This document shows, piece after piece, positions 9,359-24,578 of a stretch of DNA of 24,780 nucleotides. Each line of letters begins with the position of its first letter. Within the stretch, counting starts at the first letter, position 1. The translations under genes were made by a program, and so were the position numbers. Under the pieces are notes generated by a model that saw only the letters and a program-made list of their open reading frames with translations, had not been told where the DNA came from and searched no databases. Location of the stretch: contig PBKF01000062.1 of the NCBI GenBank assembly GCA_002722105.1, positions 1-24,780 on the forward strand, written 5' to 3'. This DNA is from Fidelibacterota bacterium. Lineage in GTDB: Bacteria > Marinisomatota > Marinisomatia > Marinisomatales > UBA1611.

Positions 9359-9451
9359 GGGAATGATTGAGTAGCTGGTGCTTTCCACGGCCTTCAAAGC
9401 CGATGTCTCAGATTAATTTTGAGAGCTGGGTTCGATTCCCAGGCATTCCCG
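9359..9451 (+). tRNA. selC: Selenocysteine tRNA (anticodon TCA)
   Basis: This is a complete tRNA of 93 bases. The acceptor pairs GGGAATG (9359-9365) with CATTCCC (9444-9450), followed by discriminator G at 9451. The anticodon loop CTTCAAA (9392-9398) is that of bacterial tRNA-Sec and is closed by four G-C pairs. A long variable arm pairs TCTCA with TGAGA around a 9-base loop, and the T arm is CTGGG-TTCGATT-CCCAG. The D arm can form an extended six-pair stem (GAGTAGC/GCTTTC with one bulged T) closed by TGGT, as tRNA-Sec requires. The eighth acceptor layer would be A-G and the fifth anticodon-stem layer A-A, both mismatched. CCA is not encoded; the DNA reads CTA. It lies four bases after the SPOR gene. 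A UGA-suppressor serine tRNA is less likely given the loop and D arm. Confidence 0.9.
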
Positions 9452-9543
9452 CTAAATAAAGAAATAACATTTATTAATTTTATTGACATCTGCTCTTGAT
9501 ACATTTACGTTATGTCACATCATTTTATCATAATTAATTTTTT

Positions 9544-10791
9544 TCACTTTAACGAATCATAGTTACTGAACATTTCAAGATAAAAGTTTCGTAAATAAAT
9601 GATGAGTAAGCTTAAGGATAAACTCAAAATACCTGCTAAAAGAACGCTTCTTCTTCTTTTTGGACTAGATTTGTAAATCGGTACTTGAGCTTTGTCAATT
9701 ACTTGAATTAATGTACTTCTTCCAATCTCTTCAATTCGTGTAATTTCATATTGGCTTTTTAATGTTGTATATATTTGATTAAGAGATCCAACTTCTCTTA
9801 TAATTCTATTTTCAGCAAGTAATAAACTGGGCGAACCAGCTATATTTCGGTTACTTTGTCTGAAATCTCTTAATTTTTCTTCTTCTTTAATTAGTTCAAG
9901 ACTAATGTTTTCCATTCTGTCTGAAATATATGAAAGTTTTTCTTTTACTCTTGAGAGTGTAATACGTCTTTGTATTTTATCCAGTTCTTCAACTACAGCC
10001 ATTGCAATATCAGCTGCTAGTTTACTTTCATCTGCCTTAACAGTGATTTTCATAAGATCATTTGATTGATTTTTTACAACTGATATTTTTGAGTTCAATT
10101 CTTCCACACCCTTTTTTTTATAAAAACTCTTATTATTCAAAAAATCATCATTTTCACCATAATAATGTTCGAGGAGAGTGATTTTTTGGGAATTCTTAGA
10201 GGTTTTAAACTTTCTATCTAACATTGCAAATTGTAAGGTCTGTGAAGAGATAAGATCAGGTATAAGGTTAGCGGATCCAATATCAGTATCGGATGATGCC
10301 CCAAGGTTTACTCCAAACTGTGAAGCAATACCACTAATTTTATTATTATTTCCTCCTTTGTATGGAATTATCGAAACTGTTGAATGAAAGACTACTGGTG
10401 CAATGTATAGGACATATATAATTGTAAATGACACAATTACACTATTAAATAGAAGAATAAATTTATAATTTTTTGATACTATACTATATACAAATAAGAT
10501 AATATTTTTTATATCATCTTTTATATTTGTATCATCTAATGATAGACTGGAATCAGAATTCATTTTCCATAAAGATTTAAGCAAATTTATATTGTCATCA
10601 TTAATATCTTCTCCAGATGCATTTTCTTTTTCAATTGCCCTAATTATTTTTACGTATTTATATGGTACTTTATCTCTATTCTTCCAGTTATTAATAACTT
10701 GGGGCGTAACCGATAATTCTCGTGCTATATCTGCTAAGTGGACAATATCTAATTGCTCAGATAATATTTTTTGCATTTCTTTAAAAGTCAT
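9544..10791 (-). CDS. Wzz-type polysaccharide chain-length/co-polymerase protein fused to an N-terminal helix-turn-helix domain
   Basis: The 415-residue protein has two parts. Residues about 15-52 form a helix-turn-helix: LADIARELSVTPQVINNWKN followed by RDKVPYKYVKIIRAIEK, the pattern of phage CI-repressor-like domains (recognition helix, then NW-K-R--VP). After an acidic linker comes a Wzz region: a membrane helix at about 110-132, a periplasmic domain with SSQTLQFAMLDRKF and a coiled coil near 255-320, the pre-membrane PIYKSSPKRRR, and a second membrane helix at about 380-400. Wzz proteins set polysaccharide length or help export in the inner membrane. There is no C-terminal tyrosine-kinase domain. 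The start is ATG with a weak upstream AAGAAAA. It lies 47 bases downstream of the SLBB exporter on the same strand. The topology puts the DNA-binding domain in the cytoplasm, as in CadC/ToxR-type regulators. The fusion is seen directly; the regulatory role is inferred. Confidence 0.88.
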   Translation of the reverse strand: MTFKEMQKILSEQLDIVHLADIARELSVTPQVINNWKNRDKVPYKYVKIIRAIEKENASGEDINDDNINLLKSLWKMNSDSSLSLDDTNIKDDIKNIILFVYSIVSKNYKFILLFNSVIVSFTIIYVLYIAPVVFHSTVSIIPYKGGNNNKISGIASQFGVNLGASSDTDIGSANLIPDLISSQTLQFAMLDRKFKTSKNSQKITLLEHYYGENDDFLNNKSFYKKKGVEELNSKISVVKNQSNDLMKITVKADESKLAADIAMAVVEELDKIQRRITLSRVKEKLSYISDRMENISLELIKEEEKLRDFRQSNRNIAGSPSLLLAENRIIREVGSLNQIYTTLKSQYEITRIEEIGRSTLIQVIDKAQVPIYKSSPKRRRSVLLAGILSLSLSLLIIYLRNFYLEMFSNYDSLK

Positions 10792-10838: not shown

Positions 10839-13800
10839 TTAACGGCCCAAGACAGCAATTACAGCATAAGCTTGAATCAAATCTGCATAAATTTGTGTTA
10901 TGTTAGTTACATATTCTGTAAAACTAAATGGTTCTGTTTCGTCTTCTGATAAAACTGTAATAATCGATCCATCCATAACTTTTGGGCTAAATTTTAGAAA
11001 TCCTATTTTTTTTGAAGCGCCATTTGGATAACTAATAAATGTAGAATACTTATCTGCATTCTTTGAATAACCTCCAGCGAGTTTAATATAGTCATCTAAT
11101 TTAAATCCTCTAATGTATTGATAAGTTCCAGGTGAACTTACTTGTCCAATTATTTTTACTATATTTGTTCTAGGTGATACAAATATTGAATCACCTCCAA
11201 TTAAACTAATATTAAATTTTGACCTAGGCGATTTGATAAGTTCAGAAAATCTAATTTTAATTTCCTCATTATTACGAATTAAAATAGATGCATCTGGGTT
11301 TGCGTAATCTGTTATTCCACCCGCTCGTTTAATTAGAGAGCTTAGTTTTTCATCTTTACTTTGCAATGTATAATTACCTGGATAATAAACCTCGCCACCT
11401 AAACTAACACTCTCGTACTCTATAATCTCAGAGGAATATATTGATATCTGGTCATTAGCTTTTAATCTATAATTCAGAATTGATTTACTAAAGTCAGAAA
11501 ATGTCTCTATTGAATTAACAAAATCATATGCATTTACATCCGCAATAATTTTTGCGTCCTTCTTACTGTTATTTATACTCGAAATTTCAATCCTTACACT
11601 TTTATTACTATTCAAAAAACCTCCAGCTAATAATATCAAATCGCCTAATTTCATGTTTTCATAAAGTTCATAAAAACCAGGATTATTAATTTGTCCAAAA
11701 ATGGAAACTTCTCTATTCAAATTTTGAAAAAGCGAGTTGGAATATAATACCAACCTATCACCAGGCATCATTCTAATATTATTCTCATTATTTATATTAA
11801 AGTCCTTTAGGTTTAACGATATAATTCTTCTTGTATTTTTTACCTGGTCCATTCTAATTAAATCAGCTCTTCCTAAGAATATATCATTAAAGAATGATGA
11901 ATCATCAAGACCAGATCCTGAGAAAAGCAAATCACTAACCGTCATATTTTCAGCATAGGGATACTTGCCTGGTGATTTTATGAAACCATCGATTTCAACT
12001 GAATCTGGAATTGTTCCAAGAATTTGTTCTTTTGAATAAATGGTAATTTTATCTCCCATTTTTATTTCTTCTTTGGCAATACTATGACCAGATAATACCG
12101 AGTCAAGATTAAAAGAGATTAATTCAAGATCTAACTTATCTGGCATAATTCTCAATAAATCTGCTCTTTCCATATATGTATTATTTAATCTATCAATATT
12201 CTCAAATCCCCCGCCAAGAAATATCAAATCAAAAATAGTCATGCCCCTTCTATATTCTTTTAAGCCAGGGTCCAATACATAGCCTTCTATACTAATATCA
12301 TCACTATAAATCATATCAGAAAAAGAATATATTCGTACTTGGTCATTGGATAATAAAGTAATGTCATGATTCGGATTATTTATCATTACAGAATCAAGAT
12401 TGACCGTAATTAAGGTTTGGCTTGCATCAGGACGCTGTCTGATTATGTCAATTTTTTCTTTGTAAACATCATCATTAATAAAACCGTCTGCTTTTTTTAG
12501 CAATTCAGATACTTTTAATGTTTTTCCGATAGAATAACTACCTGGCCTTTTAACGGGACCATTAATCGTAACAACTTTATGCTGTTCATCTGTTATTTTG
12601 TAAAATGTAATTATATCTCCATCAAATATGTCAATATCACTATCTGTCAGCATTAAATCATTAAAGTCGATATCAATAAGTTCTCTATCCTTTCCAAATT
12701 TTATACGATCTTCTATGGACAATATTCTATCTAAGCGCACTCTTTTCATGTATGTTGTTGATAAAAACCCTCCAAAGATTTTTTTCAAATCCTTAAAAGA
12801 TTCATTTTCTTTTAACTCAAAAATTGAACTCCTTCTAATTTCACCTATTATTTTTACAGTCTTTTGTCGAGGTGAAATAAAAACAACATCATTATCTTGT
12901 AATTGAATATCATCTAATTTTTTACCCGTAAGTAAAAAATTATAAAAATCAATTGACCCTATTTCTTTTCCTTTTCGGATAAGCTTAATATCTCTAAGTG
13001 AGCCCGAGATTTTTGGACCATCAAAATAATAAAGGGAGGTAAAGAGTGATGTTGAAGGTCTCATTTCATAGGCGCCTGGTTGGTCTACCTCTCCCATCAC
13101 GAAAACCCTAATTGGTTTCAAGACTATTGATCCTAGGCTAACATCAAAAAAGGTAGATGGGTTATTATTACTCGATGAAAGGCTTGAATAAGCTTTCTGA
13201 AGTATTTTTTTTAATTTTTTTTCGAGACCAGCAAGATCTAACCCATTAACAAAGACTTGCCCTATATTTGGTATGAAAATATATCCATCTCTAGAAACAA
13301 TATATTCCGACATGTCTTCAGTTTCACCCCATAACATTATAATGATTTCATCACCTGGGCCAATGATATAATCAGGTGAAGCAGCTAAATCAGAGGAGCT
13401 TTGAAAAATTGTTGGATCACTTGAGAAAGTAGAGTAACCAAAATATTCTTCCTTTAGAATTATTTTATCTTCTGATTCTTTTATTGAGTCTATAATTGAA
13501 TCCATTTTTTGATTTGAAATATCAATCAATTTTTCATTCTGTTTAATTTCGCTCATGATAATTTTTTCAATAACACTATCACGATCAGAATTTTTTAAAG
13601 GTTCAGTTTCATTTAAGCTATTATCTAGTTCAATTGTCTTCTTAAGATCTGGAATGATATCTTCATTTATAGATTGGTCGATCTTAGATTTTTCAATAAC
13701 ATTTTGATCAAAAGAAATATCGGAATCGATATTGTCTTCTATTAGTCTTTTTATTTCCTCATTAGATAAACCGGATTGCTCGATTAATCTTTTCATTTCG

Positions 13801-13880
13801 TTTATATTGCTTTGCCCAAACAAAATATGAGCAGATAAGATAAATATTAGGTTAATAAATAAATTATTTTTTTTTATCAA
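10839..13880 (-). CDS. Outer-membrane polysaccharide exporter with eight SLBB repeats (Wza-related)
   Basis: The 1013-residue protein has a signal peptide (residues 1-22, ending ILFGQ), an acidic helical region to about 150, and a Poly_export domain at about 166-232 (DYIIGPGDEIIIMLWGETE). Eight SLBB-type beta-grasp repeats then begin near residues 259, 342, 436, 529, 627, 723, 825 and 908, most with the signature G-(V/I)-x-x-PG-x-(Y/F). A final amphipathic helix (about 986-1009) resembles the Wza segment that forms the outer-membrane pore. E. coli Wza has about 380 residues and is a lipoprotein; this one is far longer and has no lipobox cysteine after its signal. It is predicted to form the periplasm-spanning exit channel for exopolysaccharide or capsule, working with the Wzz-like protein encoded directly downstream. 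The ATG at 13880 follows a 269-base AT-rich leader. Confidence 0.92.
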   Translation of the reverse strand: MIKKNNLFINLIFILSAHILFGQSNINEMKRLIEQSGLSNEEIKRLIEDNIDSDISFDQNVIEKSKIDQSINEDIIPDLKKTIELDNSLNETEPLKNSDRDSVIEKIIMSEIKQNEKLIDISNQKMDSIIDSIKESEDKIILKEEYFGYSTFSSDPTIFQSSSDLAASPDYIIGPGDEIIIMLWGETEDMSEYIVSRDGYIFIPNIGQVFVNGLDLAGLEKKLKKILQKAYSSLSSSNNNPSTFFDVSLGSIVLKPIRVFVMGEVDQPGAYEMRPSTSLFTSLYYFDGPKISGSLRDIKLIRKGKEIGSIDFYNFLLTGKKLDDIQLQDNDVVFISPRQKTVKIIGEIRRSSIFELKENESFKDLKKIFGGFLSTTYMKRVRLDRILSIEDRIKFGKDRELIDIDFNDLMLTDSDIDIFDGDIITFYKITDEQHKVVTINGPVKRPGSYSIGKTLKVSELLKKADGFINDDVYKEKIDIIRQRPDASQTLITVNLDSVMINNPNHDITLLSNDQVRIYSFSDMIYSDDISIEGYVLDPGLKEYRRGMTIFDLIFLGGGFENIDRLNNTYMERADLLRIMPDKLDLELISFNLDSVLSGHSIAKEEIKMGDKITIYSKEQILGTIPDSVEIDGFIKSPGKYPYAENMTVSDLLFSGSGLDDSSFFNDIFLGRADLIRMDQVKNTRRIISLNLKDFNINNENNIRMMPGDRLVLYSNSLFQNLNREVSIFGQINNPGFYELYENMKLGDLILLAGGFLNSNKSVRIEISSINNSKKDAKIIADVNAYDFVNSIETFSDFSKSILNYRLKANDQISIYSSEIIEYESVSLGGEVYYPGNYTLQSKDEKLSSLIKRAGGITDYANPDASILIRNNEEIKIRFSELIKSPRSKFNISLIGGDSIFVSPRTNIVKIIGQVSSPGTYQYIRGFKLDDYIKLAGGYSKNADKYSTFISYPNGASKKIGFLKFSPKVMDGSIITVLSEDETEPFSFTEYVTNITQIYADLIQAYAVIAVLGR

Positions 13881-14149
13881 TTCAATACCTCGTCATGATT
13901 TTTAAGGTATAAATTAATTAATAAACAAAATTTAAACAATATGTAAATAATGAATTTTCAAAATAGACAATCATATATCTGATTTAGTTTTTAAAAATTT
14001 AATAAAAATGGATAATTAGTTTATAAAAAGTTTATAATTTAAAAAATTTGATATACTAGTTAAATAATTTAGTTATAAGAAGTCTGAAAAATTTTTCTTC
14101 TAATTATTTGGATTTTGAATGTTAAAAACTAATAATGTAGTATTGAATA
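13881..14149. promoter_or_regulatory. AT-rich leader upstream of the export operon, with an 11-base-spaced direct repeat
   Basis: This 269-base gap lies upstream of the exporter gene and downstream of the flavoprotein gene, both on the minus strand. AGTTTATAA occurs twice (14018-14026 and 14029-14037) with start points one helical turn apart, about 140-155 bases before the exporter start. A short hairpin (AGAAG/CTTCT, 14078-14101) lies closer to the flavoprotein end. No convincing promoter hexamers stand out, and no gene fits here. The repeat is a possible operator; this is weak evidence in such AT-rich DNA. Confidence 0.25.
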
Positions 14150-18730: not shown

Positions 18731-20359
18731 ATGAAAAAAATGAACATATACTGGGTTGTGGTTGATTGCGTCAGAAATTATCGAACTGGTAAAGATGACA
18801 GAGATAAGCTTGATATAATGTATGAGCTTGAAAAAGACTACGTCTCATTTCAGAAAATGATAGTTTCAGCTCCTAGTTCTGTTATGTCGATTAGTACTTC
18901 TTTAAGTAGCATTCCATCATATTACATTGCAGGTAATTACATTGACTTTAGATTTGACAATAATTTATTTTGGTCTTTAAGTAAGATTTTAGAAAATAAA
19001 GGGTACAATAATCATGCTATCTTAAATGCAAGAGCATCTAGAGAAAAGTTAGTTGATCTTGTAACTTTAGTAGATAGAAAATTTTGGGATCCACATCTTA
19101 AGCATTCCACAGTTTGCTGGAAAAATAGTGAGGTAACCAGTGTTTTCAATAACTTGTTTAAATCTAAACCTGAGGAACCTAATTTCTACCTTTTATGGTA
19201 CAATGCTAGAAGAGATCCAAATATTTCAAATGAAGTTTCAAATCTTCATAAGAAACTAAAAACAGAAGGACATCTAGAAAACAGTATCTTTATTCTAACT
19301 TCTGACCATGGTTATCCAGATCCAAAAAGAGGGTTAATCTCTGATGGAGTTGACTTAAAACAGGTTGGTTTACCTCATGATATAATTTTAACTGATGATA
19401 ACATAAACGTTCCATTCATTATAAGCTACCCTGGATCGCCAAAAGCGAAAATTAATTGTCAAACTAGTTGTGAAGATATAATGCCAACAATCTTAGATAT
19501 TTTAGGAATTGATAAGCCGAAACCAAAATCAGTAGACTTTTTTGGTAAATCTTTGATTCCTCTAATTAATGGTCAAGATGATGATTTTTGGAAGACCCGT
19601 ATAATAAGAAGCGATGCTAGATTTTCAATGCAGGCTGAAAGAATTACGTCCTTAAGAAAACATGATTTTAAATATATTATTCAACATGAGAATAAACATG
19701 AGGAATTATATAATTTTGATAGTGACCCTTATGAAGAAGTAAACTTGGCTAACTTAAAAGAATATGAGAATCAATTAATTAGCTTTAGAAAAATTTTCTC
19801 TGCTATGGAATCTAAATCTATTATTTTTTTAAAAAATAAACTTATTAATAAATTAAAAACAAAGAGTAATCTTTCTGATATAATTTCTGAAGACTGTTAT
19901 GTAATTAATTTTGGTGAATCATATTTTTATGAAATAGTTTTAGAGGCTTTATATGAAATTTATCCAAAAATTAATATGATATTTATAGGTTCTGGTTATG
20001 AGCAATTTAATTCAAAATTAAAAAAGAAAAAATTTAAGGTGATTAATTTTAAAAATATTTACACTACTACATTTATAAAATTTCCTGTGCGTATTGAGAT
20101 TTTAGATGACCCATTATCAAAAGTTTTCACTTCACATTTTTCTAATTGTCAAAAAATTAAATCAAACCAAAGTTATAGAATCAATCCCGCGCCTGAAATT
20201 TCTAATGTATCAAACAGTTTTTTTAATTCTCCTAAAGTTGCACATTATAAAAGAGTGTTGAATAGATTGATTATGAAAAAAGACGTATATCTTACAGAAC
20301 CAACCTATTTATATATTGAATTAAAAAGATTATTTAGAATTCTTCTCTCTAAAAAATAA
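18731..20359 (+). CDS. Sulfatase/alkaline-phosphatase-superfamily protein with an unassigned C-terminal domain
   Basis: Residues 1 to about 360 have the sulfatase fold: metal ligand D12 (WVVVDCVRNYR), a serine-rich nucleophile region (residues 46-60, SAPSSVMSISTSLSS), D192-H193 in LTSDHGYPDP, NVPFIISYPGSP near 226, EDIMPTILDILGI near 248, and the C-terminal ELYNFDSDPYEEVNL. The formylglycine motif (C/S)xPxR of true sulfatases reads SAPSS: there is no Cys, and the Arg is replaced by Ser. An unmodified Ser or Thr nucleophile, as in phosphotransferases of this fold, is therefore more likely than sulfate-ester hydrolysis. The region between nucleophile and DHG is compact. About 180 residues at the C-terminus (365-542) match nothing I know; NFGESYFYEIVLEALYEI to FIGSGYEQF looks Rossmann-like. 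There are no membrane segments or signal peptide, so it is probably cytoplasmic. It is first in the glycan cluster, 34 bases before asnB. Confidence 0.78.
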   Translation: MKKMNIYWVVVDCVRNYRTGKDDRDKLDIMYELEKDYVSFQKMIVSAPSSVMSISTSLSSIPSYYIAGNYIDFRFDNNLFWSLSKILENKGYNNHAILNARASREKLVDLVTLVDRKFWDPHLKHSTVCWKNSEVTSVFNNLFKSKPEEPNFYLLWYNARRDPNISNEVSNLHKKLKTEGHLENSIFILTSDHGYPDPKRGLISDGVDLKQVGLPHDIILTDDNINVPFIISYPGSPKAKINCQTSCEDIMPTILDILGIDKPKPKSVDFFGKSLIPLINGQDDDFWKTRIIRSDARFSMQAERITSLRKHDFKYIIQHENKHEELYNFDSDPYEEVNLANLKEYENQLISFRKIFSAMESKSIIFLKNKLINKLKTKSNLSDIISEDCYVINFGESYFYEIVLEALYEIYPKINMIFIGSGYEQFNSKLKKKKFKVINFKNIYTTTFIKFPVRIEILDDPLSKVFTSHFSNCQKIKSNQSYRINPAPEISNVSNSFFNSPKVAHYKRVLNRLIMKKDVYLTEPTYLYIELKRLFRILLSKK

Positions 20360-20393
20360 TTTATAGTGCTTTTAGGGAAAATATAAGATTATC

Positions 20394-21926
20394 ATGTGTG
20401 GTATTTTAGCATCTTTTAATAATAATCATAATAAGGCTGACTATATAAAGTCTTTAGGTTTAATGGTTCACCGTGGTCCAGATAATACTGGAAGCTATTT
20501 TAACGAAGAAACTAATACTTTTTTAGGACAAAATAGATTAGCTATCATTGATCTTGATCCCAGGTCAAATCAGCCATTTAAGCTGGGAAATTATTTGATG
20601 GTATATAATGGTGAAATTTATAATTACAAAGAACTTATTATTGAACATAAGCTAGATGTAAAAACCAAGTCCGATACTGAAGTATTATTGTCTATGTATG
20701 ATAAATATGGACCAAAATGTTTGGATTATTTCAATGGGATGTTTGCATTTGTGATATATGATTTAAAAAATAAAAATTTTTTTGTTGCCAGAGATCGTTT
20801 GGGTATTAAACCATTATATTATAGAAACATTGGTAATAAATGGATTTTCTCTAGTGAAATTTCTTCCCTTCTCAGTTTAGAAGATTCAGAATTTGATAAT
20901 TTTGGTTTGAGGCAATATAAAAAATTGAGAATGACTATAAAAGGTTATACGGTTTTTAAAGATATTAAAATATTTCCGCCTGGATATTTTTTACATAATT
21001 ATCAATTTAAACAATATTGGAATTTTAAAATAATTCAAAAAGATAAGCCTGATGAAGAAAATTTAAGGTGGTTGATTGAGGACTCTGTACGTTTAAGGAA
21101 AAGGTCGGATGTACCTGTTGGAGCTTATTTAAGTGGTGGATTAGACAGTACTATTTTAACTGCATTATTAAGACCTGATGATTCTTGGACTGTCGGGTTT
21201 AAAGAACTAAATGAATTTGAGTGGAGCAATATTGCCAATGAGAATATAAGATCAAATCATCATCAGATAGTCGTCGGTAAAAAGGAATATCTAGATACCG
21301 CAAAATGGATGATTAGAAAAAGAAGAGAGCCATTATCTGTTCCAAATGAAGTTTTGATTTACTTGATGACAAAGCAAGTTAAAATTAAAAATACAGTAGT
21401 TTTATCTGGAGAGGGCGCAGATGAATTGTTTTGGGGATATGATAGAATTTTTAAATGGGCTAACTCAGCAAAAGTTTTAAATCTCAGTGATTTTGATAAA
21501 TATTATTGTTATGGTAGTGATATTGATAATGAAATAATTGATTTTGCTTTAGAGGGTATTGATGGAGATAGTGTGCTAGATAAGATTGCTTATTATTTCC
21601 AGATACATCATTTACAGGGCTTGTTAAGAAGATTAGATAATTCTACTATGCTGTGTAGTGTGGAGGCTAGAGTTCCATTTGTTGATCATAGACTAGTAGA
21701 GTTGCTAGCTGGAACGCCTTTTAAATGGAAAATGGGAGATAGTTTTAAAGAACCTTTAAAAAGTATTTTTGCTGATTTACTTCCATCTGAAATTATTAAT
21801 AGGAAAAAAGTTGGATTTCCAGTGCCGCTTGATTCAGTTTTTCCAGATACACCAGAAAAAGAAACAGCAATGGATTCATGGTTGATGTTTAATATAAATA
21901 ATTTTAAGGAAAAGTTTCTTGACTAG
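20394..21926 (+). CDS. asnB: Glutamine-dependent asparagine synthase-like amidotransferase
   Basis: This class II amidotransferase uses glutamine ammonia and ATP to amidate a carboxylate. The N-terminal glutaminase starts with the required C2 after the initiator Met (MCGILASF) and carries HRGPDN near 26, NGEIYNY near 72 and SDTEVLL near 93. The synthetase domain has the PP-loop SGGLDST at 247-253 and SGEGADELFWGYDR near 340. At 510 residues it is shorter than E. coli AsnB (about 554). It lies inside a surface-glycan type cluster and overlaps the cytidylyltransferase by 8 bases. Homologues in such loci are thought to amidate uronic acids or other sugar acids, so free asparagine may not be the product here. 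The domain call is firm; the substrate is inferred from context. Confidence 0.9.
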   Translation: MCGILASFNNNHNKADYIKSLGLMVHRGPDNTGSYFNEETNTFLGQNRLAIIDLDPRSNQPFKLGNYLMVYNGEIYNYKELIIEHKLDVKTKSDTEVLLSMYDKYGPKCLDYFNGMFAFVIYDLKNKNFFVARDRLGIKPLYYRNIGNKWIFSSEISSLLSLEDSEFDNFGLRQYKKLRMTIKGYTVFKDIKIFPPGYFLHNYQFKQYWNFKIIQKDKPDEENLRWLIEDSVRLRKRSDVPVGAYLSGGLDSTILTALLRPDDSWTVGFKELNEFEWSNIANENIRSNHHQIVVGKKEYLDTAKWMIRKRREPLSVPNEVLIYLMTKQVKIKNTVVLSGEGADELFWGYDRIFKWANSAKVLNLSDFDKYYCYGSDIDNEIIDFALEGIDGDSVLDKIAYYFQIHHLQGLLRRLDNSTMLCSVEARVPFVDHRLVELLAGTPFKWKMGDSFKEPLKSIFADLLPSEIINRKKVGFPVPLDSVFPDTPEKETAMDSWLMFNINNFKEKFLD

Positions 21927-22392
21927 AGATAATAACAAGAGAGAAAAGTATAAATTAGGTTATACAACTGGAGTATTTGATTTATTTCATATAGGGCATC
22001 TTAAACTTTTAAAAAGAGCAAAAAATAAATGTGAAAAACTTATAGTTGGCGTCACTATTGATGAATTAGTTTCTTATAAACATAAAGAACCTGTTATATC
22101 TTTTGCGGATAGGGCAGAGATTGTAAAGAGTATAGAGTATGTCGACAATGTAGTACCTCAAGTATCAATGGATAAAATGGCTGCTTGGGAAAAATTGGGA
22201 TTTGATGTAATGTTTGTCGGAGATGATTGGAAAGGAACAGCTAAATGGAAAATAATTGAAAAGGATTTTAAAATTATTGGAGTAGATATTGTATATTTTC
22301 CTTATACAGAGGGTACGTCTTCAACACTCATAAATAATATTTTAATTAACCGCAGAAATAGAAAATCTAATGAGAAGGAAAATAATGACTAA
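21919..22392 (+). CDS. Glycerol-3-phosphate cytidylyltransferase-like nucleotidyltransferase (TagD family)
   Basis: The 157-residue protein belongs to the HxGH cytidylyltransferase group. It has GYTTGVFDLFHIGHLKLL at 14-31 with HIGH at 24-27, VGVTIDELV near 48, DVMFVGDDWKGT near 95, and the C-terminal YTEGTSSTLI, a variant of the RTEGxSTT motif. TagD makes CDP-glycerol from CTP and glycerol 3-phosphate for teichoic acids and capsules; Bacillus TagD has about 130 residues, so there are about 15 extra at each end. The only reasonable start is TTG at 21919: no ATG precedes the nucleotide-binding segment, and AAGGA lies 8 bases upstream inside asnB. It overlaps both neighbours by 8 bases. Phosphoethanolamine or another polyol phosphate are alternative substrates. 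Confidence 0.85.
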   Translation: MTRDNNKREKYKLGYTTGVFDLFHIGHLKLLKRAKNKCEKLIVGVTIDELVSYKHKEPVISFADRAEIVKSIEYVDNVVPQVSMDKMAAWEKLGFDVMFVGDDWKGTAKWKIIEKDFKIIGVDIVYFPYTEGTSSTLINNILINRRNRKSNEKENND

Positions 22393-23254
22393 ACTCGATG
22401 AAGTAAAAGATTACTGGAAGGGTAAAAATGTACCCCAGCAATGGTATTCAAAAAAGACGCCTCTTACATTAGCTTGGTTCAATGAAATTTCAATGAAACG
22501 ATATAAGGTTTATTATGAGTATTTAGCTGATCTTATGGAATTTGAATTCCATAGTGGAGAGAAAGTTCTAGAAATAGGTTGTGGTCTAGGAACTGACCTG
22601 GTTGAATATGCAAAAAATGGTTCTATCGTAACTGGTGTAGATTTAAATGAGGATCAAATAAATTTTACTAAATTAAACCTAGAGTTAAGAAACCTACCAT
22701 ATTCTGAATTAAAAGTAGCAAATGCGGAAAAATTACCTTTTGATAATAATAAATTTGATTTGGTAGTGTCTTTTGGTGTTTTACATCATACTCCAAATAC
22801 CGAAAAAGCTATTGAAGAGGTGTATCGAGTTTTAAAAGATGATGGCACTGCAATTATAATGCTTTATGCAAGAGGCTGGAAACATTATATCAAGCGATGT
22901 TTGATAAGTGGAATTTTATTAGGGAAATTTTTTAGATATGGTTTTAGCTGGCAAAAAGTTTATAATGATGCATCTGAGGTACATGGAAATTCTCCTAAAA
23001 CAGGAGTCTATACGAAAAGACAAGTAAAAAAATTATTTAAAGATTTTAAAAATCTAGAGCTGAGTAAAAAAAGGATGGGAGAATTTTTTGAATATAAACC
23101 ATATAATACTTATAAATTTCCTAAGTTTGTAATAAATCTATTTAAATTTTTTAATTTTGAAAGTCTATTGGGTGAAAATTGGTTAATAAGAGCTCAGAAA
23201 AAGCCATTCCCCAAAGAAGCATCACTTTTTGAGGTAATTTTTAAGCATTACTAA
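22385..23254 (+). CDS. Class I SAM-dependent methyltransferase (UbiE/type 11-like)
   Basis: The SAM-binding motif I is VLEIGCGLGTDLVEYAKNGS at about 60-79, with GVDLNEDQI as motif II. NAEKLPFDNNKFDLVVSFGV and LHHTPNTEKAIEEVYRVLKDDG follow, as in Methyltransf_11 enzymes. The N-terminus DEVKDYWKGKNVPQQWYSKKT is shared by methyltransferases found in polysaccharide loci. The C-terminal third is basic and aromatic and may contact substrate or membrane. I prefer the ATG at 22385 (289 residues) because GAAGGAAAAT sits directly before it; an ATG at 22370 would add five residues. The start overlaps the preceding stop by 8 bases. It probably methylates a sugar or another moiety of the cluster's product; the acceptor is unknown. 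Confidence 0.88.
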   Translation: MTKLDEVKDYWKGKNVPQQWYSKKTPLTLAWFNEISMKRYKVYYEYLADLMEFEFHSGEKVLEIGCGLGTDLVEYAKNGSIVTGVDLNEDQINFTKLNLELRNLPYSELKVANAEKLPFDNNKFDLVVSFGVLHHTPNTEKAIEEVYRVLKDDGTAIIMLYARGWKHYIKRCLISGILLGKFFRYGFSWQKVYNDASEVHGNSPKTGVYTKRQVKKLFKDFKNLELSKKRMGEFFEYKPYNTYKFPKFVINLFKFFNFESLLGENWLIRAQKKPFPKEASLFEVIFKHY

Positions 23255-23444
23255 TATAAACTAACTCTTTATAATAACATTCACTAATTCCATTTTAAAT
23301 TTTAATAAAATTGATTTATTTCTTACTAGAAATGACCAAATTTATAGAGATATTCATCTTTATAAATATTTTCTAGAAAAAGTAAACTATCTTAGAGAAA
23401 AATCTAACGTATCTCTATCAAAAAAAAATTTAATTTGTGAGCAA

Positions 23445-24578
23445 TTGTTTGATGCCATGGAAAGTACTTTTCATAAAAATAAAATTACAATTGCAAATAA
23501 TTTAATATCTTCCTTTAATATAAATTACGATAAGAGACACAATGTAAATATTGTATCTGGTAATGCTATTTTAGCTGATTTTTTTTCAAAAGATCATAGA
23601 GAGTCTTTATTTATTTTTGATTCAAGCGGTATAAATAATGTTATGGACTTTTATAATGATATTTCCATGCCTGCTGATATTAAAGTAATAGATATTGAAT
23701 CAATAAAATCTGGAAAAGATATAAGCAGAATTATTCATCTGAGTAAAGGGATTAAATTTATTATCGGAGTTGGTGGTGGTAGGACGGCGGATATTTTAAA
23801 GTTTCTTTCTTTTAAAACTGATATAAGTTGTATTTCCATTCCGACTAGTTTAACTAGTCATGTTTATGCTTCCCCCAAAATACATGCTCTCCCAGCCATT
23901 CAGGACTTCGGATATAAATTAACTATTGATGGCAAGGCATCTGATTTAGCTTTAGTAGATACCAGTTTTTTAGAACATGTTTATCTTAAAAATAAAAGAT
24001 TAATTATGGCTGGGTATGGAGATCTTATGGCATTTTGGACTGCTTTAGAAGATTGGAGGTTGGCCTGTTTAAATAAAAATAACCATTACAATCTTTTTGC
24101 TGAAAATGTTATTCTAGATATTTTTCAAAAGTTCGATGATATTAATATAAATGAAAAATTTTCAAAATGGGTTGATGATTATATTCTTATTCAGAACCAG
24201 CTTTGTCATATAACTGACTGGGTTAATAGTGCTCCAGCATCTGGTTCCGAACATTTATTTGCGCACGAAATAGAAAAATATTGTGACGAGCCTATGCCTT
24301 TGCATGGTGAATTAGTTTCAATAGGGGTTTTAATTTTTGGTTACATACACAAATTAGATATAGAAAAAATAGTTACTTTATTAGATAAGTTTTCTGTTTC
24401 CCGATCTCTAAAACAAATAGGAATAAATAAAAGTATAGTCTGTAAGGCCTTGATGGATTCATTAAAGTATGGATTCAAAAAGAATAGGTACACTATATTA
24501 AATGAACTGAATTTTTCTTATGCAGATTGGGAGAATGTTATAGATGGACTTATTGAAAGTAATTTTATTTTAGAATAA
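23445..24578 (+). CDS. sn-Glycerol-1-phosphate dehydrogenase-like enzyme (AraM/EgsA, iron-containing alcohol dehydrogenase superfamily)
   Basis: Known members reduce dihydroxyacetone phosphate to sn-glycerol 1-phosphate with NAD(P)H and a divalent metal. The 377 residues from TTG 23445 include the nucleotide-binding GVGGGRTADILKF at 108-120, IPTSLTSHVYASP near 132-144, the metal ligand D193 (AGYGDLMAFW), ASGSEHLFAHE with H270/H274, and H287 (PLHGELVSIG). The canonical (S/T)xDGxxSP segment of archaeal and AraM enzymes reads TSHVYASP, so its Asp-Gly is replaced. The start is doubtful: the frame stays open and protein-like back to 23265, with NKIDLFLTRNDQIYRDIHLY and VNYLREKSNVSLSKK, but has no ATG, GTG or TTG there. 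Starting near 23271-23292 at ATA or ATT would place the gene about 15-40 bases after the methyltransferase. It probably supplies the polyol phosphate for the cytidylyltransferase. Confidence 0.8.
   Translation: MFDAMESTFHKNKITIANNLISSFNINYDKRHNVNIVSGNAILADFFSKDHRESLFIFDSSGINNVMDFYNDISMPADIKVIDIESIKSGKDISRIIHLSKGIKFIIGVGGGRTADILKFLSFKTDISCISIPTSLTSHVYASPKIHALPAIQDFGYKLTIDGKASDLALVDTSFLEHVYLKNKRLIMAGYGDLMAFWTALEDWRLACLNKNNHYNLFAENVILDIFQKFDDININEKFSKWVDDYILIQNQLCHITDWVNSAPASGSEHLFAHEIEKYCDEPMPLHGELVSIGVLIFGYIHKLDIEKIVTLLDKFSVSRSLKQIGINKSIVCKALMDSLKYGFKKNRYTILNELNFSYADWENVIDGLIESNFILE

Follow-up and report, generated by a model that had tools for sequence, protein, structure and literature searches.

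A Wzz-type polysaccharide co-polymerase with an N-terminal helix-turn-helix domain in Candidatus Neomarinimicrobiota: a candidate membrane-anchored regulator of its own export operon

The window, i.e. the entire 24,780-nucleotide stretch of DNA analysed here, carries on its reverse strand a gene coding for a protein in which an N-terminal helix-turn-helix (HTH) domain is joined to a Wzz-type polysaccharide co-polymerase (PCP) (Table 1). Directly upstream lies a gene for a Wza-like OPX protein of the SLBB/Poly_export type; the two genes are separated by a 47-bp gap and probably share an operon, and the locus thus has the Wza-like partner expected of a Wzz-type protein in a polysaccharide locus. 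The next gene beyond the SLBB gene codes for a FAD-dependent oxidoreductase. In most of the other loci examined an SLBB gene is likewise found upstream of the Wzz gene, being unrecognised or cut off in L047-L050, L058, L073, L128 and L133, and in L064 Wzx-like and glycosyltransferase genes follow downstream. Elsewhere in the window, a selenocysteine tRNA gene (positions 9359-9452, forward strand; Rfam tRNA-Sec, 62.8 bits; ARAGORN tRNA-SeC) is flanked by a SPOR-domain gene and by the 3' end of the HTH-Wzz gene, which runs convergently, and a row of sulfatase-like, asparagine-synthase-like, cytidylyltransferase, methyltransferase and iron-ADH-type genes (18731-24578, forward strand) perhaps specifies a decorated glycan or phosphoglycerol pathway.

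Table 1. Features of the HTH-Wzz locus, in window coordinates
Feature	Position	Strand	Basis or remark
HTH-Wzz fusion gene	9544..10791	-	415 aa, ATG start
Cro/CI-type HTH domain, residues 3-58	10618..10785	-	AlphaFold2 helices; PF15943/PF07022 in relatives
Recognition helix, residues 30-39 (PQVINNWKNR)	10675..10704	-	P30, Q31, N35, W36 and K37 invariant in 47/47
Disordered cytoplasmic linker, residues 59-87	10531..10617	-	pLDDT under 50
First membrane helix (TM1), residues 109-130	10402..10467	-	Model helix and hydrophobic sequence
Periplasmic Wzz/PCP domain, residues 133-378, ending in a conserved proline segment	9658..10395	-	Foldseek; GNVR, residues 329-402
Second membrane helix (TM2), within residues 379-402 of a longer helix (379-414)	9586..9657	-	AlphaFold2 model
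SLBB/Poly_export (Wza-like OPX) gene directly upstream	10839..13880	-	1013 aa; PF02563 E=5e-18; 7 SLBB stretches
Intergenic stretch preceding the SLBB gene (candidate control region)	13881..14149	.	Motif searches negative

An AlphaFold2 model of the window protein, built on 47 aligned sequences including its own, resolves the N-terminal region into helices spanning residues 3-14, 19-25, 30-39 and 44-58, with block means of pLDDT of 84-92 over residues 1-50 and of 70 over residues 51-60. The HTH is formed by helices 2 and 3 of this helical bundle which, along with the Pfam matches of relatives, marks it as a domain of the Cro/CI type. The model also predicts an additional helix (residues 90-107) between the linker and the first membrane helix. 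Foldseek searches with the model recovered Wzc, WzzE and KpsE with E-values down to 1.1e-11, in agreement with a PCP fold with two flanking membrane helices. The GNVR domain (PF13807) is matched above the cut-off (E=6.7e-8), P368 and P377 ahead of TM2 are conserved in at least 90%, and PF02706 is matched by 43 of the 47 aligned sequences, while not being listed for the window protein up to E=1. The preliminary description of this locus had proposed a CI-repressor-like HTH at about residues 15-52, followed by a two-helix Wzz protein with a proline segment before its second helix; both proposals are borne out, the HTH being slightly longer than envisaged and present also in the predicted structure of the full chain. 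Of the profile matches that it had suggested seeking, those to HTH families are found in relatives, PF02706 is not listed for the window protein itself, and the HTH hits of the latter remain below the cut-off.

These hits are to the YdaS family (PF15943; E=1.2e-3 with the whole protein and 1.1e-4 with residues 1-87) and to the CI repressor family (PF07022; E=0.13 and 0.015, respectively). At E<=0.01, PF15943 matches 42 of the 47 aligned sequences (best 6.5e-7) and PF07022 matches 24 (best 6.4e-7). A PDB search with the single HTH sequence of the window protein gave nothing useful; with an HTH profile the best match was a phage-type Cro protein (3bd1), at a weak E=0.009. Mean pairwise identity is 16% over residues 53-105, 39% in the periplasmic domain, 60% in the HTH (residues 1-52) and 79% in the helix 2-turn-helix 3 segment, the best-conserved part of the protein in the alignment. 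The recognition-helix pattern PQ-x3-NWK is present in all 47 sequences, and its invariant Q31 and N35 presumably match the base-contacting positions of 434/CI-type repressors. HTHs similar to this type, hereafter group A, also occur in 27 short frames of 125-261 aa within the phylum. Two of these that were examined combine the HTH with weak PAS matches (PAS_3 2.7e-4; PAS_13 7e-3; both below cut-off) and are apparently soluble one-component regulators, which would support a DNA-binding ancestry of the group A HTH. The short frames include L055:604-1200, L056:5847-6542 and 25 more, with HTHs like those of group A and of group B (see below). In viral contigs, three loci match the HTH region only.

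A search of 5.8 billion proteins, in which 7,995 candidates were scored, yielded 84 homologues of the window protein, and 76 of the 84 match the HTH motif, a share that is biased upward by the preference of the word-based search for sequences with a conserved HTH; three of the eight proteins lacking the motif are short fragments. With residues 1-60 as the sole query against proteins of similar length, 18 were found, all of them within the same set of Wzz homologues. Among these proteins, P0001-P0031, which are encoded on metagenome contigs, are 46-67% identical to the window protein when aligned over the full length, P0007 being a fragment at 100%. Nearly all relatives also share the start site, typified by M-x-F, the exceptions being P0011 and P0030 (shorter) and P0075 (longer). 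Chimaeric contigs can create fusions of this kind, and in one genome (G118) a wHTH part and a Wzz part lie on opposite strands of a single contig, probably by an assembly fault. However, the recurrence of the HTH motif in those 76 homologues and in dozens of separate genomes leaves next to no room for a gene-prediction or assembly artefact that joined a regulator to a Wzz gene in the window. Thus, the fusion is real: it is present in relatives, where the preliminary description had suggested that it be sought, and the misassembly that the latter had considered is ruled out by conservation.

Within the same phylum, other Wzz proteins carry an HTH of a second, different kind. In these proteins (group C) about 75 residues of another HTH precede TM1, with an EKTLRNR motif in the third helix that is kept in 39/39 and 16/17 of the proteins compared. 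A group A HTH profile at E 1e-3 gave no match to this domain. A model of one representative (P0085) predicts helices at residues 5-16, 24-33 and 38-50 (block means 76-87) and no confident wing, and Pfam matches to the domain are weak (Rrf2, 4.8e-4; penicillinase repressor, 9.4e-4; CggR_N, 2.7e-3). The domain occurs 63 times in 61 of the 245 genomes of the phylum, 57 times within frames of 395-598 aa; the six short frames are those of G118, of G037, G124 and G153, which are cut by contig ends, and of G036:C41 and G152, which are partial. A Wzz match was found in 42/43 and 17/17 of the group C ORFs examined, G118 being the exception. In a tree of 81 Wzz domains, made by a quick method, unrooted and with long branches, group C forms one group (support 89) and group B another (support 100), with group A and HTH-less sequences being mixed; the labels change 6 times against a mean of 37.4 after shuffling. 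This topology places the two HTH types on separate parts of the tree and implies repeated gain or loss of the group A type. HTH-less relatives are present within the A/B part, which suggests that the HTH is dispensable for export as such.

The fusion loci L001-L004 and L006 belong to Candidatus Neomarinimicrobiota/Marinimicrobia. Two further loci carry other labels: L005 (G005:C8) is an HTH-Wzz gene in a MAG that bears the label Flavobacteriales and whose relatives within the family have Wzz proteins devoid of an HTH, and L007 (G298:C26) is a contig end in a MAG labelled Dehalococcoidia, with a 138-residue piece running from the HTH to TM1 that is close to the Marinimicrobia locus L006. Both likely reflect misbinning or transfer. 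Group A fusions are found in 10 of the 245 genomes of the phylum, and group B, with a divergent HTH that is probably related to that of group A, in 6. Altogether, a Wzz protein with an HTH of one of the three groups is present in about 68 of the 245 genomes (60 with group C, leaving out G152, and 8 with group A or B only). Each outside group was tried with only one of two profiles (group A for Bacteroidota, group C for a proteobacterial sample). With the group A profile, 51 of 296 Bacteroidota give a Wzz match, and only the match of G005 starts in the first half of the HTH; that of G833 starts at position 36 and has a stop inside. Similarly, 43 of 52 genomes in the family of G005 match this profile, with G005 alone matching from position 1. 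The group C profile found 0/299 in the phylum of G299 (a Parendozoicomonas), an empty answer that by itself shows little. As to co-occurrence, one 229-kb contig (G002:C2) bears group A and group B HTH-Wzz genes about 63 kb apart, and groups A and C are both carried by G001, G066, G076, G077 and G086, which suggests one DNA-binding type per polysaccharide locus. The group B proteins of G109:C50 and G147:C101 (L049 and L050) are identical over the compared Wzz part, pointing to a recent transfer or a shared contamination.

The group C loci offer a candidate DNA target. In 17 of them serS is divergent from the SLBB-Wzz operon, and alignment of the intergenic regions gives the palindrome GCCCGGGC in all 17, preceded by a T in each except L066. 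Between 700 bp upstream of the SLBB start and 60 bp into the gene, it is found in 25 of 40 group C loci, including 22/22 in one clade, and in 0/26 loci whose Wzz either is HTH-less or belongs to group A or B (Fisher 4e-8, with related genomes counted as independent and some of the 26 comparison loci carrying little upstream sequence). When counted by hand, the loci that retain 100 bp or more upstream give 19/21 against 0/17. All loci of this comparison were chosen before the motif was known. Across whole loci, those of group C (352 kb) hold 58 sites where 0.49 is predicted, those of groups A and B (254 kb) one where 0.32 is expected, and the HTH-less ones (177 kb) none where 0.20 is expected, these expectations resting on base composition only. 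The same holds within genomes: G136 and G121, which also have a group C operon, lack the palindrome at their HTH-less Wzz loci (L059, L067 and L069). Judged by these locus comparisons, the palindrome tracks the group C HTH type at its own operon and is a candidate operator of the group C HTH-Wzz proteins.

With the SLBB start as reference, the sites lie at -257 to -137, about -23, 0 and +50, and they are also seen inside the SLBB and ugd genes. A reading in which the intergenic palindrome belongs to serS is not favoured, since the 8-mer is also seen near the SLBB start in loci without an adjoining serS (L112, L140, L116-L119, L131 and L139, the last six having it in coding sequence). Among 18 group C loci with both an upstream site and one in the SLBB gene the spacing is 369-449 bp in 16 and 233 bp in 2; in a hand count the spacing varies with no constant helical phase, so that looping by phased operators is not favoured and is entertained only within the extended reading given further on. 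The copy within the SLBB gene falls on a conserved G-P-G-D, written GGC-CCG-GGC in 17 of the 22 clade loci; it is missing from five (L106 and L116-L119), and L116-L119 instead carry the 8-mer close to the 5' end of the SLBB gene. Thus, the SLBB G-P-G is coded GGCCCGGGC in 17/22 clade loci against 0/29 G-P-G in other SLBB genes (0/12 in deeper group C and 0/17 in A, B or HTH-less loci). Other G-P-G are coded GGC-CCG-GGC in 0/51, of which only 3 come from same-clade loci, and the same-clade control stands at 0/3 in unselected loci and, excluding the L204 SLBB gene, at 3/10 in loci chosen for the 8-mer, a selection that biases the latter count upward. This thin control weakens the codon argument.

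In 15 of the 40 group C loci GCCCGGGC is missing from the SLBB start, and in many of these a site is found in ugd codons further up the operon. In the deeper group C clade the palindrome is mostly away from the SLBB gene and recurs in the codons of ugd, which belongs to the same operon (19 of 29 genes); these codon sites may be taken as weak support for the target. In the ugd genes of L125-L138 and L217-L230, EPGL or ARA is often coded with GCCCGGGC or CCCGGGC, even at 26-35% G+C. Among 17 loci chosen by their HTH after the motif was known, 12 have the palindrome, with 13 sites against 0.78 expected. It occurs 2-10 times per genome in ten whole genomes of the clade, with a total of 59 sites against 11 for a reversed control. 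About 20 of the 59 lie at the operon, and of the 39 off-operon sites the 32 examined are all in ORFs, some at codons conserved between genomes. Since the palindrome is commoner than the reversed control elsewhere in the genome too, and the other sites examined are in ORFs, not every site is likely to be functional. An extended motif, GGGC-N2-5-GCCCGGGC, is matched in 73 of 245 genomes; among the matches listed, many are at the operon in the AT-rich clade and many are chance hits in GC-rich genomes, and one match that recurs lies in coding sequence, for a protein of about 1,400-1,600 aa. Two additional serS-SLBB regions with the site (L197 and L204) were found through the motif and are excluded from the support. 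As a separate observation, an intergenic GCCCGGGCAGTGCCC is present at L198:3449 (G146) and L199:1757 (G145), where neither an SLBB nor a Wzz gene was recognised in the neighbourhood.

A second conserved block, AGGAAT-n-CTATCGA, precedes the SLBB start in the 17 serS-SLBB regions (L064, L066 and 15 others), and in many of them CTATCGA is followed by a hairpin, AAACTG-CGCC-CAGTTT, and by AGGCAA. This block is possibly a leader RNA. Scans of five such leaders against Rfam gave no family at the gathering score, and a twister-P3 hit in L066 was sub-threshold (17.9 bits against 39.9).

Comparable searches for the group A HTH were negative. Palindromic dyads shared among 8 loci were not found (best uncorrected 3e-4, AT-rich), nor were k-mers of 6-10 bases or spaced trimers in 7 loci (best corrected k-mer 0.27), or dyads across the whole operon in sets of 4, 5 and 8 loci (best corrected 0.26-0.34, with 4-base arms); in particular, these methods turned up no motif that the intergenic region upstream of the window's SLBB gene has in common with the 7 further loci of this group. 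The group A set is small and its members are widely separated; as a positive control, the same methods recover GCCCGGGC from group C sets of 10, 7 and 5 loci, and an operator search in a set of 6 deeper group C loci gave nothing. The group B loci yielded a single dyad of marginal significance (corrected 0.04), CAGC-N8-GCTG, shared by 3 of the 4. As promoter scans showed no excess of hits over shuffled sequences, no promoter was placed.

Taken together, these observations lead us to propose, with a probability of roughly 0.6, that the HTH-Wzz proteins are polysaccharide co-polymerases that double as membrane-anchored transcription factors acting on their own export operons. The two membrane helices would hold the Wzz domain in the periplasm, with the HTH reaching into the cytoplasm on a flexible linker, the topology that the preliminary description had deduced and that homology to known PCPs supports. 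Wzz/PCP proteins function as multi-subunit rings, and a ring would therefore present several HTHs, which might hold on to a single operator or to several close to where the SLBB-Wzz operon begins, such that its transcription would shift when the export complex is assembled or busy. The earlier idea of a membrane-anchored regulator is supported, and a second HTH type and the group C palindrome at the operon come in addition. For group C this regulatory reading is supported by the comparison of loci; for the window protein we infer it. Taking group C as a guide, the window HTH would most likely serve to bind the region that controls its own operon: the domain presumably binds DNA, its site should lie at that operon, and the state of the ring might be the signal for an autoregulatory effect, with repression as the simpler guess for its direction. 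Conceivable signals are the assembly of the ring, the polymer or its repeat units.

A different use of a DNA-bound co-polymerase would be to tether the polysaccharide locus to the export machine at the membrane, so that synthesis and insertion would be local, with no control of transcription. The varied positions of the palindrome (upstream, at the SLBB start, and inside the SLBB and ugd genes) would suit an anchor as well as a regulator. Nevertheless, we know of no precedent for a co-polymerase with a dedicated tethering role, and all 17 serS-SLBB intergenic regions have one site in the control region itself; tethering is hence regarded as unlikely, even with the clustering of CadC at the membrane in dependence on its DNA site, described in the part of PMC6320335 available to us, as a parallel. 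It could also be envisaged that the HTH has lost DNA binding and serves as a cytoplasmic protein-docking module. HTH folds in membrane proteins can bind proteins, as does the HTH-like domain of RodZ, and the fruitless searches for a group A DNA site would be in keeping with this. However, the most conserved residues are on the turn and the recognition helix, the group C domain tracks a DNA palindrome, and the uptake of two different HTH types is better suited to DNA binding than to one common partner, all of which makes docking rather improbable.

Action of the HTH on RNA, or on transcription elongation through the long polysaccharide operon in the manner of antitermination, appears very unlikely. 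The conserved block with its hairpin after the palindrome in the serS-SLBB region might hint at such a role; it matched no Rfam family at the gathering score in five loci, and palindromes inside the SLBB and ugd genes would also be present in the mRNA. Against this, CTATCGA is not found in L112, L116-L119, L131, L139 and L140, where GCCCGGGC stays, and both HTH types resemble DNA-binding domains. Thus, regulation of the own export operon by a membrane-anchored co-polymerase is the reading that we prefer. It can be extended, tentatively and at somewhat less than even odds, to co-polymerase transcription factors throughout the Neomarinimicrobiota, in which Wzz rings would have acquired HTHs of different origin, each locus being wired to its own export machine via its own operator, and a ring with many HTHs might grip two operators, one in the upstream region and one in the SLBB gene. 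Were this true, the assembly of the export machine or its filling with polymer would be read out directly as transcription. Little is understood of how bacteria adjust the transcription of polysaccharide genes to the activity of the export machine; a co-polymerase that carries a DNA-binding domain of its own would provide a direct link from the one to the other, for which group C supplies a concrete candidate operator, GCCCGGGC.

The window protein shares with the Wzz/PCP family (PF02706 and PF13807; e.g. WzzE, Wzc and KpsE) the two membrane helices, long helices in the periplasmic domain, a proline segment ahead of TM2 and the adjoining Wza-like SLBB gene. It differs in its approximately 100 extra N-terminal residues containing the HTH, and it is without a C-terminal kinase domain. 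In fold and motif its N-terminal domain is like the Cro/CI-type repressors and YdaS-like HTHs (PF07022 and PF15943), which are soluble phage or chromosomal regulators. RodZ combines a cytoplasmic HTH that binds MreB with a single membrane helix and a periplasmic domain, and has no Wzz domain; the likeness is in the succession of cytoplasmic HTH, membrane helix and periplasmic domain, whereas the window protein has two membrane helices and no listed match to the RodZ-type HTH_25 (PF13413) up to E=1. In CadC and ToxR the DNA-binding domain is an OmpR-type winged helix, and no such Pfam match (Trans_reg_C) is listed for the window protein.

The view of the preliminary description that no system of this kind has been described agrees with our search of the open-access literature, which found no HTH-Wzz fusion, an absence that is no proof, and nothing on the regulation of surface polysaccharides in this uncultured marine phylum. 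In the parts available to us, neither PMC11340318 nor PMC12419801 describes such a fusion, and the latter reports that other lipid or exopolysaccharide enzymes can have an HTH domain fused to them or beside them. The closest precedent is streptococcal CpsA of the LytR-CpsA-Psr family, a capsule protein for which binding to capsule promoter sequences has been reported (Hanson et al. 2010, 2012, cited in the portion of PMC11739294 consulted); CpsA is of a different family and role, being linked to polymer attachment, and is no co-polymerase. With the ToxR/CadC-like regulators (for CadC, PMC6320335, in part) the window protein would, by its model and with its topology taken from known PCPs, share the union of a cytoplasmic DNA-binding domain, a membrane anchor and a periplasmic domain in one chain. 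In contrast to these dedicated sensors, the periplasmic part here is a component of the export machine, and the HTH is of the Cro/CI type (groups A and B) or of another type (group C). Thus, HTH-Wzz proteins may work like CadC but stand outside the CadC family and, if the proposed regulation is correct, an export component would join the membrane-integrated one-component regulators as a sensor.
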